Source: Thiomicrorhabdus lithotrophica (GTDB taxonomy: Bacteria; Pseudomonadota; Gammaproteobacteria; Thiomicrospirales; Thiomicrospiraceae). Taken from it: 64,000 nt of DNA. The notes beneath the pieces are model-generated. The model ran no database searches and was not told the DNA's origin. It saw nothing but the letters and a program-made list of their open reading frames with translations. Numbering within the stretch: the first letter of the stretch is position 1; the number at the start of each line of letters is the position of its first letter. Below are positions 13,318-63,842 of the stretch, in pieces. Made by a program: the position numbers and the translations under genes. Location of the stretch: positions 496,001-560,000 of the forward strand of contig NZ_CP102381.1 of assembly GCF_029201445.1 (NCBI RefSeq), in the 5' to 3' direction.

Positions 13318-14406
13318 TTAAGAGTCGTTACTTAATGAAGCAAGTAACTCAGCCTGGTGTTCTTGCAATAGCGGGCCTACAACTTGATCTAGTCCACCAT
13401 TCATTACTTCATCCAGTTTATAAAGGGTTAAGTTGATACGGTGATCGGTCACGCGCCCTTGAGGGTAGTTGTATGTTCGTATACGGTCTGAACGATCCCC
13501 TGTCCCCACCAAGCTCTTACGCTCTTTGGCTATTTCGGCATCGTGTACTTGTTGCTTTGCATCCATGATACGTGCAGCAAGAAGTGACATCGCTCTTGCA
13601 CGATTTTTATGCTGAGAACGTTCATCCTGACACTCAACAACCGTATTGGTTGGAAGGTGAGTGATTCGAATGGCAGAGTCCGTTTTGTTAACGTGCTGAC
13701 CACCCGCACCAGAGGCTCTGAAGGTATCTACTTTTAAATCTGCTGGATTCAGTTCAATCTGCTCTACATCAGGAGCTTCAGCCATGATTACTACAGTTGC
13801 TGCAGATGTATGCACTCGACCTTGTGTTTCTGTTGCTGGCACACGTTGTACGCGATGAGCACCGGATTCAAATTTTAATTGAGAGTATGCGCCATCACCG
13901 ATAATACGTGCAATGATCTCTTTATAACCACCATGTTCACCATCATTGGTATTGATAACCTCTACCTGCCAACCCATTTTTTCAGCAAAACGACTGTACA
14001 TTTTAAATAGATCGCCTGCAAAAATAGCCGCTTCATCACCACCTGTTCCAGCACGAATTTCTAAGAAGATGTTGGCATCATCATTAGGATCTTTTGGTAG
14101 CATCATGGTCTGTAGATCGATTTCATAGGTCTTAATTTTTTCTTCTAGCTCAGGCAACTCTTCTTGGGCCATTTCCTTTAACTCAGGGTCGCCAGAAGCC
14201 ATCATCTCTTTGGCTTCAGCAATATCACCTTCTGCCGCTATGTAAGCTGTAAAAGTTTCTACAATTGGCGTAATTTGCGCATACTCTTTCGTTAGGGTAG
14301 TGAACTTTTTTTGATCATTAATGACATCAGGATCAGATATCAGGGCACTTACTTCATCTAGGCGTTCAACTAAAAGTTCTAGTTTTGAGCGAATTGAATC
14401 TTTCAC
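13318..14406 (-). CDS. prfA: Peptide chain release factor 1
   Basis: 362 residues, normal RF1 length. [15 protein letters not shown] contains the PAT tripeptide that reads UAG/UAA, and [16 protein letters not shown] holds the catalytic GGQ. Starts at GTG (14406). Between hemA (58-bp gap) and prmC (26-bp gap), the usual hemA-prfA-prmC operon. Confidence 0.97.
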
Positions 14407-14464
14407 GGGCGTTTCTCGGTATTAGGTCAATTGGTTTGTTGGTCCAACGGATAGTTTAAGTAGG

Positions 14465-15745
14465 TTATTTGTGAAGTTTTTTGGGATCGTCTTCACAAAT
14501 TAATAGGGTTTCAGCGGCTTCAATTATGGCCTTATTGCCATCCATGCCAGCTAGATTTAATTGTTTTGTTGGAGTGTGAATCAGTCTGTTTGTCAGCTGA
14601 TTGGCTAATCGTTTAACAATCTCTTCGGAGTTTACGCCTTGTTCAAGTTGGTGTAAGGCATGCTCTAACGCCGCTTCTTTAATGTCCATAGATTGTTGGC
14701 GATAGGCTTGAATGACAGGCTTGATTTGCTGGGTAGCCTTCATCTGTGTTACGAAGTGTTCTGCTTGTAATTCGATGATTTCTTCAGCCTCTAAAGCGGC
14801 ATTTTGGCGAGACTGCTTGCTAGTCTCAATAATCTCTTGTAGATCATCAACCGTATACAAATACACATTATTTAGATTGCATATACCTGGTTCCATATCT
14901 CTAGGAACAGCAATGTCCACTAAAAACATCGGACGATTCTTACGTTTTTTAACAGCGGCTTTAACTGAATCTTTAGAAAGAATGGTATTTGGGCTACCAG
15001 TTGAGCCGATAACGATATCGGCTTCATGTAGGTGCTTATCTATTTCATCAAGATTTATTGCATAACCATCTACGCTTTCTGCCAGGTTGTGTGCGCGTTC
15101 AAAAGTACGGTTAGCAATAATAATGTTACCAATATTACTCTCTTTGAGATGGCGTGCAACTAATTCAATGGTTTCACCCGCACCAAGTAAAAGTGCAGTT
15201 TGCTGAGATAAATCACCAAAAAATTGCTTGGAAAGTGATACGGCAGAAAAAGCTACAGAGATAGGGCTGTTACCAATTGCGGTGTCTGTGCGAACCTGTT
15301 TAACGGTTTTAAAAATATGCTGGAACAGGTTTTCTAAAACTTGGTGAATGCTTTCAGACTTATGAGCTGAGTTATAGGCATCTTTTATCTGTCCAAAGAT
15401 TTGCGGTTCACCCAGTACTAACGAGTTCAATCCGCTAGCAACACGCATAATGTGTTTAACGGCTTCTAAATCATGATGAACATACAAGTACGGTGTTAAG
15501 GTTTTTGGCTCAAGTTCAAAGAAATCATGTAACCAGTTATGAAGTTGATCTTCTAGGTGGTTTTCTTTTAGGATGCAATAAAGTTCTGTACGGTTACAGG
15601 TAGATAGAATTATGCATTCTGAAATCAGAGCTTGGGCTTTGAGTTGTTCTATCGCAATGAAAGCCGCATCAGTCGAGAATGAAACTGTTTCACGGATGTC
15701 GACAGGTGCCGTTTCGTGATTTACGCCAAGGGTACATAGTTTCAT
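14465..15745 (-). CDS. hemA: Glutamyl-tRNA reductase
   Basis: 426 residues; reduces glutamyl-tRNA to glutamate-1-semialdehyde, the first step of C5 haem synthesis. GVNHETAPVDIRE at the N-terminus, catalytic cysteine in STCNRTELYC, SGLNSLVLGEPQIFGQIK, the NADPH loop LLGAGETIELVARHL and a C-terminal dimerisation helix region are all present. It heads the hemA-prfA-prmC-moeB row and is transcribed away from the TPR lipoprotein gene. Confidence 0.97.
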   Translation of the reverse strand: MKLCTLGVNHETAPVDIRETVSFSTDAAFIAIEQLKAQALISECIILSTCNRTELYCILKENHLEDQLHNWLHDFFELEPKTLTPYLYVHHDLEAVKHIMRVASGLNSLVLGEPQIFGQIKDAYNSAHKSESIHQVLENLFQHIFKTVKQVRTDTAIGNSPISVAFSAVSLSKQFFGDLSQQTALLLGAGETIELVARHLKESNIGNIIIANRTFERAHNLAESVDGYAINLDEIDKHLHEADIVIGSTGSPNTILSKDSVKAAVKKRKNRPMFLVDIAVPRDMEPGICNLNNVYLYTVDDLQEIIETSKQSRQNAALEAEEIIELQAEHFVTQMKATQQIKPVIQAYRQQSMDIKEAALEHALHQLEQGVNSEEIVKRLANQLTNRLIHTPTKQLNLAGMDGNKAIIEAAETLLICEDDPKKLHK

Positions 15746-57372: not shown

Positions 57373-60194
<2,822 letters not shown>

Positions 60195-60196
60195 TT

Positions 60197-61375
60197 ATGA
60201 CGCAGAACTTTATACCGTATGGTAAGCAAGACATAAGTGAAGAAGATATCGATTCAGTACTTAAGGTACTAAAATCAGATTTTCTTACACAGGGCCCACA
60301 AGTGCCATTGTTTGAAAAAACAGTGGCGGGTTATTGTGGTGCGGAGTATGGTGTAGCCGTAAATAGTGCAACGTCGGCCTTACATGTCGCCTGTCTTGCT
60401 CTGGGGCTTGGAGAAGGTGACTGGCTTTGGACCACTCCAAACACTTTTGTAGCATCTGCAAATTGTGGTTTGTATTGCGGCGCCAAAGTTGACTTTGTAG
60501 ATATTGATATGCAATCTTATAATCTTTCGGTAGAGAAATTAGAAGAAAAGCTCATTCAAGCAAAAAAATCAGATAAATTACCCAAAATTGTCATTCCAGT
60601 GCATTTTGCAGGACAGTCCTGTAATATGAAACGCATTCATTCATTGAGTCTTGAATATGGGTTTAAAGTAATCGAGGATGCATCACATGCCATCGGTGGT
60701 AAATACCTAGATAAACCTATCGGAGGATGTCAGTATTCAGACATCACAGTATTTAGCTTCCATCCAGTTAAAATAATTACGACTGCAGAGGGTGGTCTTG
60801 CAACGACGAACTGTCAGAAATTATATAAAAAGATGCAACGCCTTCGAAGCCATGGGATCACTAGAGACGTTGAGGATATGATTTTACCTTCAGAGGGAGA
60901 GTGGTCGTACCAACAAATTGAGCTAGGATTTAATTATCGCATGACAGAGATTCAAGCGGCATTAGGTGTTAGTCAGATGAAGCGACTGGATGAGTTTGTT
61001 GCTAGACGTCAAGTTTTACGAAAACAGTATGATCAACTTCTTGAACAAGAAAATTTGATTCTTCCAAGCCAAAGTGATGATTGTTATTCTTCCATGCACT
61101 TATATCCGATTTTGTTAGGGACACAAGACAGTTCATTAGCACGTTCAAGAGTTTTTAAGTGTTTGAGAGCTAGTAATATCGGTGTAAATGTCCATTATAT
61201 TCCAGTTCATACACAACCTTATTATCTCAATTTAGGCTTTAAAAACGGCGACTTTCCTAATAGCGAGCTCTATTATCAGAATACCGTTTCTTTGCCCTTG
61301 TTTTATGGCTTAACGGATAAAGATCAGGTTTATGTTGTCAGTGAACTAAAGAAAGCATTACAGGCTATTGAGTGA
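60197..61375 (+). CDS. pseC: UDP-4-keto-sugar aminotransferase
   Basis: 392 residues, DegT family. YGKQDISEEDIDSVL, NSATSALHVACLALGLGEGD and FHPVKIITTAEGG (PLP lysine) match PseC, second step of the pseudaminic pathway. Starts 2 bp after pseB, so coupled. Confidence 0.94.
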   Translation: MTQNFIPYGKQDISEEDIDSVLKVLKSDFLTQGPQVPLFEKTVAGYCGAEYGVAVNSATSALHVACLALGLGEGDWLWTTPNTFVASANCGLYCGAKVDFVDIDMQSYNLSVEKLEEKLIQAKKSDKLPKIVIPVHFAGQSCNMKRIHSLSLEYGFKVIEDASHAIGGKYLDKPIGGCQYSDITVFSFHPVKIITTAEGGLATTNCQKLYKKMQRLRSHGITRDVEDMILPSEGEWSYQQIELGFNYRMTEIQAALGVSQMKRLDEFVARRQVLRKQYDQLLEQENLILPSQSDDCYSSMHLYPILLGTQDSSLARSRVFKCLRASNIGVNVHYIPVHTQPYYLNLGFKNGDFPNSELYYQNTVSLPLFYGLTDKDQVYVVSELKKALQAIE

Positions 61376-61376
61376 T

Positions 61377-62081
61377 ATGACCAAATCTATTTGCCTTATC
61401 CCAGCAAAAGGGGCATCCACAAGATTACCAAATAAAAATAAACTTCCTTTGGACGGTAAACCCTTAGTGACTATCGCAATTGAAAAAGCTTTAAAGTCAG
61501 CTATTTTTGATGAAGTTTGTGTTTCAACAGAAGATTTAGAGCTTTCTGAAATGGCCAAAAACGCTGGAGCAAGCGTACCCTTTATCCGTCCGGAAAGCTT
61601 ATCGCATGATCCTGCAACGATTGTTGACGTTATGTTGCATGCGATAGCCTATTACGAACAAAACAATTGTTATTTTGACGATATTACAGTGTTATTGCCA
61701 ACGTCCCCGTTTGTAGATATTGAAGACATTATTAAAGCGCATGAAGTTTTTAATAACGCAGGAAGAAATGCTTTACTCAGTGTGACGGAGGCGGAATTTC
61801 CGCCGTATAACGCTTGGCTGACTAGGGGTGAGGGCAAGGAGAAAAAATTAGCGCCTTGTTTTCCTGATTCACCTTTTAAAAATACTAAGTCTACCGAGTG
61901 TCCAGTCTCCTATCGGAGTAATGGAGCGATTCTAATTGTCAATGTAGCAGGCTTAAAATCAGGTAAAGGCTATAAACATATGGATATCGTTCCCTATATC
62001 ATGCCTGCAGAGCGCTCACTGGATATTGATGTCCAGCTAGAGTATGAGTTCGCAAAGTTTTTAACAGAATACAAAAAATAA
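61377..62081 (+). CDS. pseF: CMP-pseudaminic acid cytidylyltransferase
   Basis: 234 residues; LIPAKGASTRLPNKNKLPLDGKP is split by the CTP-binding AxGxSxRxxxKN motif variant, LLPTSPF follows, and ISVTEAEFPPYN-like LLSVTEAEFPPYNAW supports PseF rather than NeuA. Activates pseudaminic acid with CMP. ATG 61377 lies 1 bp after pseC. PseG and PseH are not in the window. Confidence 0.88.
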   Translation: MTKSICLIPAKGASTRLPNKNKLPLDGKPLVTIAIEKALKSAIFDEVCVSTEDLELSEMAKNAGASVPFIRPESLSHDPATIVDVMLHAIAYYEQNNCYFDDITVLLPTSPFVDIEDIIKAHEVFNNAGRNALLSVTEAEFPPYNAWLTRGEGKEKKLAPCFPDSPFKNTKSTECPVSYRSNGAILIVNVAGLKSGKGYKHMDIVPYIMPAERSLDIDVQLEYEFAKFLTEYKK

Positions 62082-62113: not shown

Positions 62114-62147
62114 AAACGTTCTACCAAATAGCTTGAAGGAGTTGAAC

Positions 62148-63200
62148 TTGAATTCAAATTATATACAAGTAGGTTCTAAAAGAATCGGTGATGGCCATCC
62201 TATTTATATTATGGCTGACTTAGGTTTGACTAATGGTGGCGACTTATCTAGAACATTCGAACTTATTGATGTCGCTTCAGAAATGGGTGTTGATGCTGTT
62301 AAATTTCAGATGATTGGCCCAGAGCATTTGTTAGGTGATAAAGCAGTTGAATATACGTATACAACGTTAACAGGTGAAAAAATCACTGAGAATATGTATG
62401 AAATGTTCTTAAAGTTAAGTTTCTCAGTAGAAGAGTGGCATAAGATTGCTGAATACACTAAAAGTAAAGGTCTAGAGTTTATTTGTACGGCTCATTATTT
62501 TGAAGCAGTAGCCATCCTTGAAGAAATAGGTGTCAATATACATAAGATCTGTACATGGAGCGCGACTCATAAGCGTTTAGTCCAGGAAATTGGTAAAACA
62601 GGCAAACCTCTCATGTTAGATACCGGAGTTTTTACAACGGCATCTTTACTTGAAACGCTTGGTTGGCATGCGGATGCGGGTGGAAAAGGCTCTTTGATTT
62701 TGCATGATTTTCACACAGAAGTAACCACGGATATGAACTTCAATTCAATCCCATTTATCAAAAAACAGTTCGGTTCACCGGTAGGTTACACACCTCAAGG
62801 AAGAGACTTCGATAAGGACTTTATGTCCATTGGTATGGGCGTTAATATCTTAGAGAAAAGATTGACTGTGGATAACACTATCCCTGAAAACGGACACTTT
62901 AAAGCATTAAATCCTAATGAATTTAATGATTGGCTGCAGCGTGTTAGAGTATTGGAGTCTTCTTTAGGTTTCTCAACGGTATTGCCTACCAAGCAGGATT
63001 TTAAAGATAGTGAAAGGTACTTTAAAAGTTTGTATATTAACCGAGATGTACAAGAGAATACCGTCATAACAGACGAAATGCTTTCAGCACGACGACCAGG
63101 AATTGGAATTTCTGCCAAATATGTGGATGAAGTCATAGGCAAGAGAACGAACCGGAATTTGCAAGCAGAAACAATGCTAGATTGGTCTGATTTAAACTAA
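62148..63200 (+). CDS. Divergent NeuB-family synthase-like protein with SAF domain
   Basis: 350 residues: TIM-barrel NeuB-like domain (about 10-275) and C-terminal SAF/antifreeze-like domain (about 282-350; RRPGIGISAKYVDEVIGK). The overall layout equals PseI/NeuB/LegI, which condense a hexose with PEP. Key residues differ: the EIGxNHNGD-type loop is DLGLTNGGD, the SDHS His is Gln217 (VGYTPQG), and the EKHFxLD His is Arg238 (EKRLTVD). In NeuB these two His bind the metal, so canonical chemistry is doubtful. TTG start 62148 is fixed by AAGGAG 6 bp before; no in-frame ATG is near. Confidence 0.85.
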   Translation: MNSNYIQVGSKRIGDGHPIYIMADLGLTNGGDLSRTFELIDVASEMGVDAVKFQMIGPEHLLGDKAVEYTYTTLTGEKITENMYEMFLKLSFSVEEWHKIAEYTKSKGLEFICTAHYFEAVAILEEIGVNIHKICTWSATHKRLVQEIGKTGKPLMLDTGVFTTASLLETLGWHADAGGKGSLILHDFHTEVTTDMNFNSIPFIKKQFGSPVGYTPQGRDFDKDFMSIGMGVNILEKRLTVDNTIPENGHFKALNPNEFNDWLQRVRVLESSLGFSTVLPTKQDFKDSERYFKSLYINRDVQENTVITDEMLSARRPGIGISAKYVDEVIGKRTNRNLQAETMLDWSDLN

Positions 63201-63215
63201 ATATAAGGAAAGAAA

Positions 63216-63842
63216 ATGAACTACAAAACAGATCAAGAAGCATTTTGGGCGGGCAGTTTTGGAGATGAATATATTCTACGAAATCAAAGCCAGGAATTAT
63301 TAGCTTCTAACTTAAATTTTTTTACAAAAGCCTTATCAAGGGCAGGAAAAGTAGACTCTTTAATAGAGTTCGGAAGCAATGTTGGAATGAATGTTAGAGC
63401 CTTGAAATTGTTGTATCCTCATCAGTCCCAATTCGGTATTGAGATTAATGCAACTGCCGCTGAAGAATTGAAAACCTTTTTAGGTGAAAAAAATGTCTTT
63501 AATGGTTCTATTTTTGAATTTGAGTCGGATAAAAAGTTTGATGTTTCACTGATTAAAGGCGTATTAATTCATATCAATCCTGAAATGCTACAAGCTGTAT
63601 ATCAAAAACTATATGATTTTTCTAAAAAGTATATATTAATTTGTGAATACTATAACCCGAAGCCAGTAGAAATTGACTATAGAGGCCACTCTGGTAAATT
63701 GTATAAGCGTGATTTTTGTGGGGAAATCATGGAGAAATTTTCTGACTTAAAGTTGATTGATTATGGCTTCGCCTATAAAAAAGATCCCGCTTTTTCACAA
63801 GATGATATTACATGGTTTTTATTGGAAAAGAATTGTGATTAA
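63216..63842 (+). CDS. Pseudaminic acid biosynthesis-associated methylase
   Basis: 208 residues, class I SAM methyltransferase. QEAFWAGSFGDEYILRN at the N-terminus and IEFGSNVGMNVRAL as SAM loop match the methylase repeatedly found in pseudaminic/nonulosonic acid loci. Substrate unknown; methylation of a nonulosonate derivative is inferred. AAGGAAAGAA precedes the ATG. Confidence 0.88.
   Translation: MNYKTDQEAFWAGSFGDEYILRNQSQELLASNLNFFTKALSRAGKVDSLIEFGSNVGMNVRALKLLYPHQSQFGIEINATAAEELKTFLGEKNVFNGSIFEFESDKKFDVSLIKGVLIHINPEMLQAVYQKLYDFSKKYILICEYYNPKPVEIDYRGHSGKLYKRDFCGEIMEKFSDLKLIDYGFAYKKDPAFSQDDITWFLLEKNCD

Follow-up and report, generated by a model that had tools for sequence, protein, structure and literature searches.

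A NeuB-fold protein lacking the manganese-binding histidines accompanies PseI and a divergent cytidylyltransferase in a pse cluster of Thiomicrorhabdus lithotrophica

A stretch of 64,000 nucleotides of the Thiomicrorhabdus lithotrophica genome (NZ_CP102381.1, positions 496,001 to 560,000; hereafter the window) encodes NeuB2, a NeuB-fold protein that we tentatively propose, at a confidence somewhat short of even, to be a second, separate enzyme of the pseudaminic acid (Pse) pathway and not the condensing enzyme. This remodelled and probably metal-free protein would act together with a divergent PseF-like cytidylyltransferase (CTPvar) in making a non-standard pseudaminic-type sugar.

NeuB2 and its gene neighbourhood

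The NeuB2 gene (62148..63200, plus strand; 350 aa from the TTG at 62148) is an intact, full-length ORF for a NeuB/PseI-fold protein in which both Mn-binding histidines are missing, Gln and Arg standing in their places. The start codon is that of a preliminary description of this DNA and is the better one, with a likely ribosome-binding site (AAGGAG, 62136..62141, plus strand, read by eye) 6 nt 5' of it; residue numbers used here count from an upstream TTG at 62133 and are higher by five than those of that description. Encoded on the same strand are the dehydratase PseB (59196..60194; TIGR03589, 555.5 bits, cut-off 407.75), the aminotransferase PseC (60197..61375; TIGR03588, 550.4 bits, cut-off 423.5), CTPvar (61368..62081; TIGR03584, 148.7 bits, cut-off 205.7) and, on the other side of NeuB2, a pseudaminic-acid-associated methylase (63216..63842; TIGR03587, 306.3 bits, cut-off 112.05). 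The window ends within this pse cluster, whose order 3' of NeuB2 is methylase, one further gene, PseG, a formyltransferase-like gene and PseI. This PseI is canonical (G000:C1:562572-563621; TIGR03586, 504.9 bits, cut-off 340.25) and lies outside the window, 3.4 kb 3' of NeuB2, which is therefore a second paralogue accompanying PseI. The preliminary description had offered three options, namely that the protein has a new chemistry, that it is a pseudo-synthase with a regulatory role, or that it is an additional paralogue and the genuine PseI follows later, and had advised looking beyond the window: the third option stands, and it is compatible with either of the first two.

A third NeuB gene of the same genome, a PseI of 448.2 bits, is found in a flagellin locus (C1:810407-811405). 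Located 5' of it (L005:5623-8411, corresponding to G000:C1:807622-810410) are an ATP-grasp protein and a ComA-ComB fusion of 515 aa, phosphosulfolactate synthase joined to phosphatase, suggesting that flagellar pseudaminic acid carries an acyl group of the sulfolactate type. A short formyltransferase-like gene occupies the place where pseH is expected at L004:4936-5580 and L014:12198-12803, so that the N-acyl group may be formyl; locus L013 has a true PseH rather than this gene.

NeuB2 passes the Pfam cut-offs for both of its domains, NeuB (140.1 bits, gathering cut-off 22.1) and SAF (40.1 bits, cut-off 21), in keeping with the earlier statement that the SAF domain and the length are intact, and scores well under the cut-offs of the NeuB equivalog TIGR03569 (N-acetylneuraminate synthase; 188.1 bits, cut-off 399.65) and of the PseI equivalog TIGR03586 (149.7 bits, cut-off 340.25). 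Structure prediction, also advised in the preliminary description, returned the NeuB fold: with an AlphaFold2 model built on a 16-row alignment (pLDDT 89.1), Foldseek gave PseI 8h2c and NeuB 1xuu as the top matches and KDO8PS and DAH7PS as the next structural neighbours, and VIA-align gave Z 35.9 to NeuB 2wqp (rmsd 4.7, 342 aligned) and Z 33.7 to PseI 8h2c (rmsd 3.5, 336 aligned). The (beta/alpha)8 barrel, the SAF/AFP-like domain, the length and the type of locus are common to NeuB2 and the PseI/NeuB nonulosonic acid synthases (TIGR03586, TIGR03569, PF03102), and identity to PseI is 21-24%. NeuB synthases are, to our knowledge, regarded as dependent on Mn; judged by alignment, NeuB2 is a member of the NeuB fold family that stands outside the Mn-dependent synthases as their ligands define them.

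Metal site and pocket

The replacement of the Mn-binding histidines by Gln and Arg, proposed in the preliminary description, is borne out against Campylobacter jejuni PseI (8h2c) and Neisseria NeuB (1xuu, 2wqp): Q222 (formerly Q217) aligns with His215 and R243 (formerly R238) with His236, both motifs being gap-free in phmmer and hmmsearch. The NHxG loop does read TNGG, and Asp (Asp29) indeed replaces the Glu in the AE motif, as had been described. Among 61 NeuB-family rows from the loci studied, near-duplicates and fragments counted, 57 have the first His, which is absent only from the four variant rows (NeuB2 and the three relatives described below); 54 have the second, the seven exceptions being the four variants (Arg), two rows of the EKT subfamily (Thr) and one doubtful row. 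Replacement of both His215 and His236, by Gln and Arg, is found in 4/4 variants.

Active-site positions were taken from the passages on NeuB/PseI in PMC6795526 and from section 7 of PMC7371886. They were assigned to NeuB2 by sequence alignment and overall fold match, and the equivalents of Asn74 and Phe288, where the alignment is ambiguous, were excluded from the site table. The pocket keeps Lys57, Gln59, Thr119, Lys138, Glu241 and Arg321, and the equivalents of Lys53, Gln55, Lys129, Glu234 and Arg314 are common to NeuB2 and canonical PseI/NeuB. In canonical numbering, the changes are Glu25 to Asp, Phe112 to His, position 133 (Gly; Phe in PseI) to Trp, Glu134 to Ser, Ser154 to Asp (Asp163 of NeuB2), Asn184 to Asp (Asp192), Tyr186 to His, Ser213 to Thr, both His, and Asp247 to Gly; NeuB2 is thereby set apart from the PseI/NeuB synthases at the Mn His pair, Glu25, Phe112, Glu134, Ser154, Asn184, Tyr186 and Asp247. 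Among the variants, 17 of the 18 mapped active-site positions are invariant, versus 130 of 355 residues overall (hypergeometric 2e-7), and 11 of these 17 (counted by eye) differ from the canonical residue.

Lys53, Ser132, Glu134, Ser154, His236 and Asp247 have roles in the canonical active site, and we take the Ser154 and Asn184 positions to be where the PEP phosphate sits. Asp at both positions argues against a PEP phosphate there, an argument that depends on these assumed contacts; the PEP-side equivalents of Lys53, Gln55 and Lys129 are kept, which also fits the use of PEP and speaks against our main reading. The retention of Lys57, Gln59, Thr119, Lys138, Glu241 and Arg321 would suit a metal-independent, PEP-dependent synthase in which Gln222 and Arg243 replace Mn in positioning and a different hexose, or the other face, leads to a second nonulosonic acid. 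We consider this alternative rather unlikely, although the model has KDO8PS and DAH7PS as its nearest structures after PseI and NeuB and the apparent sister clade EKT represents a state in which one His is retained. KDO8P synthase acts on arabinose 5-phosphate and is devoid of a SAF domain. In its metal-independent form, within the same superfamily, a metal ligand is lost and, as in NeuB2, an amide side chain is found instead, the metal-binding Cys having become Asn; the passages of PMC3052366 on this metal-free enzyme, with Asn in the role of Mn, provide a precedent. On the other hand, Asp163 and Asp192 would place negative charge at the assumed site of the PEP phosphate, the equivalents of Glu25, Glu134 and Asp247 are altered as well (Asp, Ser and Gly), PseI is retained, and there is one cytidylyltransferase for two supposed products.

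The abundance of Asp and His at the pocket positions raises the question of whether NeuB2 is a standard PseI-like enzyme with its metal ligands elsewhere, for example Asp29, Asp192, His194 and His255, the last of which lines up by eye with the histidine in the canonical PGPDH motif. We hold this to be very improbable, as an Arg in place of the second His is unfavourable to a cation there and every variant locus already has a canonical PseI.

A small family and its apparent sister clade

The search for the family, likewise advised in the preliminary description, was conducted on 84,980 genomes by means of six peptide patterns drawn from NeuB2, a scan that is exhaustive but pattern-limited. It gave three relatives, all with the same metal-site changes: L012 (98% identical along its length), from a MAG labelled Flavobacteriales, L013 (67%), from Methylophaga, and L014 (44%), from SAR116. 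PseI is over its cut-off in 4/4 variant loci (504.9 bits in the window genome, 504.0 in L012, 501.1 in L013 and 429.8 in L014), at 1.8 to 5.2 kb from the variant in the three relatives and within about 5 kb in all four, and the L013 and L014 assemblies contain two NeuB genes each, one variant and one canonical. The dN/dS of NeuB2 between the window and L012 is 0.078, more distant pairs being saturated at synonymous sites. The recurrence of identical substitutions across divergent loci rules out chance or sequencing error, and the dN/dS value, along with the invariance of 17/18 pocket positions, rules out a decaying pseudogene. The family of NeuB2 is conserved, and its rebuilt pocket is under selection.

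NeuB2 accompanies both PseI and CTPvar in 4/4 variant loci and has lost the recognised metal ligands, as might be expected of a non-catalytic partner that binds a sugar of the pathway and, for PseI or the cytidylyltransferase, acts as a regulator or scaffold. Mixed dimers are conceivable, since NeuB is a domain-swapped dimer according to the part of PMC6795526 drawn on here, but identity of just 21-24% makes mixed NeuB2-PseI dimers unlikely. Moreover, the new pocket residues are invariant among proteins at 44-67% identity and include acid-base residues that a dead binder does not obviously need. We regard a non-catalytic role as unlikely, and on the basis that the altered pocket is itself invariant, we favour new chemistry over a dead regulator.

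The contig of L012, labelled Flavobacteriales, holds a near-identical copy of the window cluster and is probably either mis-binned or the product of recent transfer. Within this pair of otherwise nearly identical clusters, NeuB2 (window 62133-63197 versus L012:2846-3910) has a dS of 0.178, compared to 0.034-0.063 in three neighbour genes, as if NeuB2 had been exchanged by recombination. At the SAR116 locus, NeuB2 is surrounded by three WbuX-like amidotransferases, two of which score under the cut-off, and by a weak match of HisH type (L014:6479-9949 and 14104-15339), which suggests an acetamidino group there.

A widespread family is not supported, given three loci among 84,980 genomes and samples that gave only known copies. 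The window's own genome was the only one with a variant among 191 relatives (five other matches were not variants), among 369 genomes of the class, among 398 of the phylum (three other matches were not variants) and among 62 of the family (six other matches were canonical); one variant was found among 57 genomes near that of Methylophaga and one among 136 near that of SAR116, both already-known copies. A combined variant and EKT profile matched 12 places in 11 of 398 genomes, of which all but those in G480, G499 and G527:C379 were inspected. On viral contigs, the best of 47 NeuB relatives is 30% identical and none carries the variant motif; 34 have the two-His motif and 13 fall outside the motif expression used, several of which were read separately. 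Among the best 40 of 62 plasmid records, the highest identity to NeuB2 is 28.4%. DNA-pattern matches to VGYTPQGR led to two proteins, unrelated by eye. No description of a NeuB paralogue without metal ligands was found in the open-access literature searched.

The clade nearest to the variants in two trees is formed by the EKT NeuB proteins, in which the first His is kept, the second is Thr, Ser154 is Asp and Asp247 is Glu. They have Asp163 in common with NeuB2 and differ from it in keeping Glu25 as well as the first His; by motif NeuB2, with YTPQG and EKR, is not an EKT protein. The branch uniting the two has support of 95/97 in a tree of 51 rows (the 61 rows minus 10 doubtful or short ones) and of 93/89, under the star threshold, in a second tree of 36 chosen rows, both trees having long branches and a midpoint root. 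If this sister relation holds, the metal site eroded stepwise in one lineage. The six EKT genes are located at L091:4646-5707, L090:9752-10852, L112:410-1519, L113:9294-10745, L114:9334-10404 and L116:9227-10293, and a NeuB/PseI with both His is present within 5 kb in four of these loci (L091, L112, L113 and L116), the partner in L091 being below both equivalog cut-offs; for L090 the other NeuB is about 18 kb off (L097). No pse genes were found in the 16.4 kb examined around the EKT gene of L114, which counts against our main reading. That gene adjoins class-III-like aminotransferase and radical-SAM-like genes (by eye; L114:9334-11793, G551:C448). The EKT gene of L116 (G423:C1) is split over two overlapping frames, either a real frameshift or a sequence error, and at L097:10127-11704 (G437:C1) a GNAT-like stretch (by eye) is fused to a two-His NeuB in one protein of 525 aa.

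The divergent cytidylyltransferase and a proposed sugar-modifying step

PseF-like genes were scored on TIGR03584 with its cut-off of 205.7 (CYTIDYLYLTRANSFERASE). All variant loci have CTPvar, with 148.7 bits in the window, 163.4 in L013 and 150.0 in L014, and the EKT loci scored 168.9 (L091), 177.2 (L090), 176.0 (L112), 193.3 (L113, close to the cut-off) and 179.7 (L116). A score below the cut-off is thus found in 8/8 NeuB2 loci that have such a gene (148.7-193.3; EKT loci counted), L012 (150.2 bits) being excluded as a near-copy and no PseF-like gene having been found in L114. Among eight loci without NeuB2, PseF is over the cut-off in four (L117, 350.0; L120, 291.2; L122, 335.1; L005, 329.4), in two Bacillota loci the cytidylyltransferase-like gene falls far short of it (L118, 43.4 bits; L119, no PseF match up to E 0.001), and in L121 and L123 no cytidylyltransferase was found in the stretch examined. 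The resulting split, 8/8 with NeuB2 versus 2/6 without, the exceptions both being Bacillota, has a probability of 15 in 1001 if loci are independent, in a set that is small and chosen. A below-cut-off cytidylyltransferase is not peculiar to NeuB2 loci, as L118 and L119 demonstrate, and this speaks against our main reading. The L013 and L014 assemblies contain no strong PseF-like gene besides CTPvar, the next matches having 50 and 31 bits, and among 277 related genomes the window-type cytidylyltransferase occurs in one, the window's own.

A locus of the same genus without NeuB2 (L117, in G030) has the order pseB-pseC-pseF-pseG-formyltransferase-pseI-methylase, with an ordinary pseF (350 bits) and with 79% identity to the window cluster in pseI, 61% in the formyltransferase-like gene and 52% in the methylase. 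From these gene contents, the pse core of the window cluster looks like the L117 pathway with pseF swapped for CTPvar and NeuB2 added; L117 sits among flagellar genes and the window cluster is a polysaccharide locus, which weakens L117 as a control. The Bacillota locus L119, on a Priestia megaterium plasmid, is a pse cluster (L119:2304-5049) in which a cytidylyltransferase-like gene far from PseF is accompanied by an aldo/keto reductase and a short-chain dehydrogenase, gene types that match those of Acinetobacter 8-epimerisation, and its sugar may be modified via this other route.

In the reading that we prefer, PseB, PseC, a formyl- or acetyltransferase, PseG and PseI would make the Pse sugar by the usual route, and NeuB2, probably without a metal, would bind this alpha-keto acid (or a hexose precursor), most likely as the free product of PseI. 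The retained Lys57, Gln59, Thr119, Lys138, Glu241 and Arg321 would serve as the sugar-binding frame, and the new set of Asp29, Asp163, Asp192, His121, His194 and Arg243 would alter the sugar by acid-base chemistry, the reaction being, at a guess, an epimerisation or dehydration around C2-C4. The altered sugar, destined for a surface polysaccharide, would then be activated by CTPvar; we infer that what is activated is not plain Pse and that NeuB2 makes the difference.

Conversion of Pse or Leg to rarer epimers by oxidoreductase-type genes is described in the relevant portions of PMC12053666 and PMC5595891. The Acinetobacter genes epaA/epaB and aciABCDE covered there are add-on genes by which a rarer nonulosonic acid is made from Pse or Leg, much as we propose for NeuB2, and EpaA has a cytidylyltransferase domain of its own; EpaA/EpaB and AciB/AciE, however, have aldo-keto-reductase or short-chain-dehydrogenase domains, whereas NeuB2 has a NeuB fold. 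More speculatively, and as a possibility that we would not count on, NeuB2 would have dropped both metal and PEP in favour of acid-base chemistry on a finished pseudaminic-type sugar and, together with a dedicated cytidylyltransferase, would yield a nonulosonic acid not yet described, in two-NeuB pse clusters that are patchy in Pseudomonadota, perhaps owing to horizontal transfer. In one study, according to the section of PMC7371886 consulted, the pathway product was assigned from NeuB sequence. Clusters with two NeuB genes would otherwise be annotated as merely two synthases; a conserved lineage that lost its metal site, one His in EKT and both in NeuB2, while keeping a selected pocket and its own type of cytidylyltransferase points to an unrecorded step in the making of bacterial sialic-acid-like sugars.
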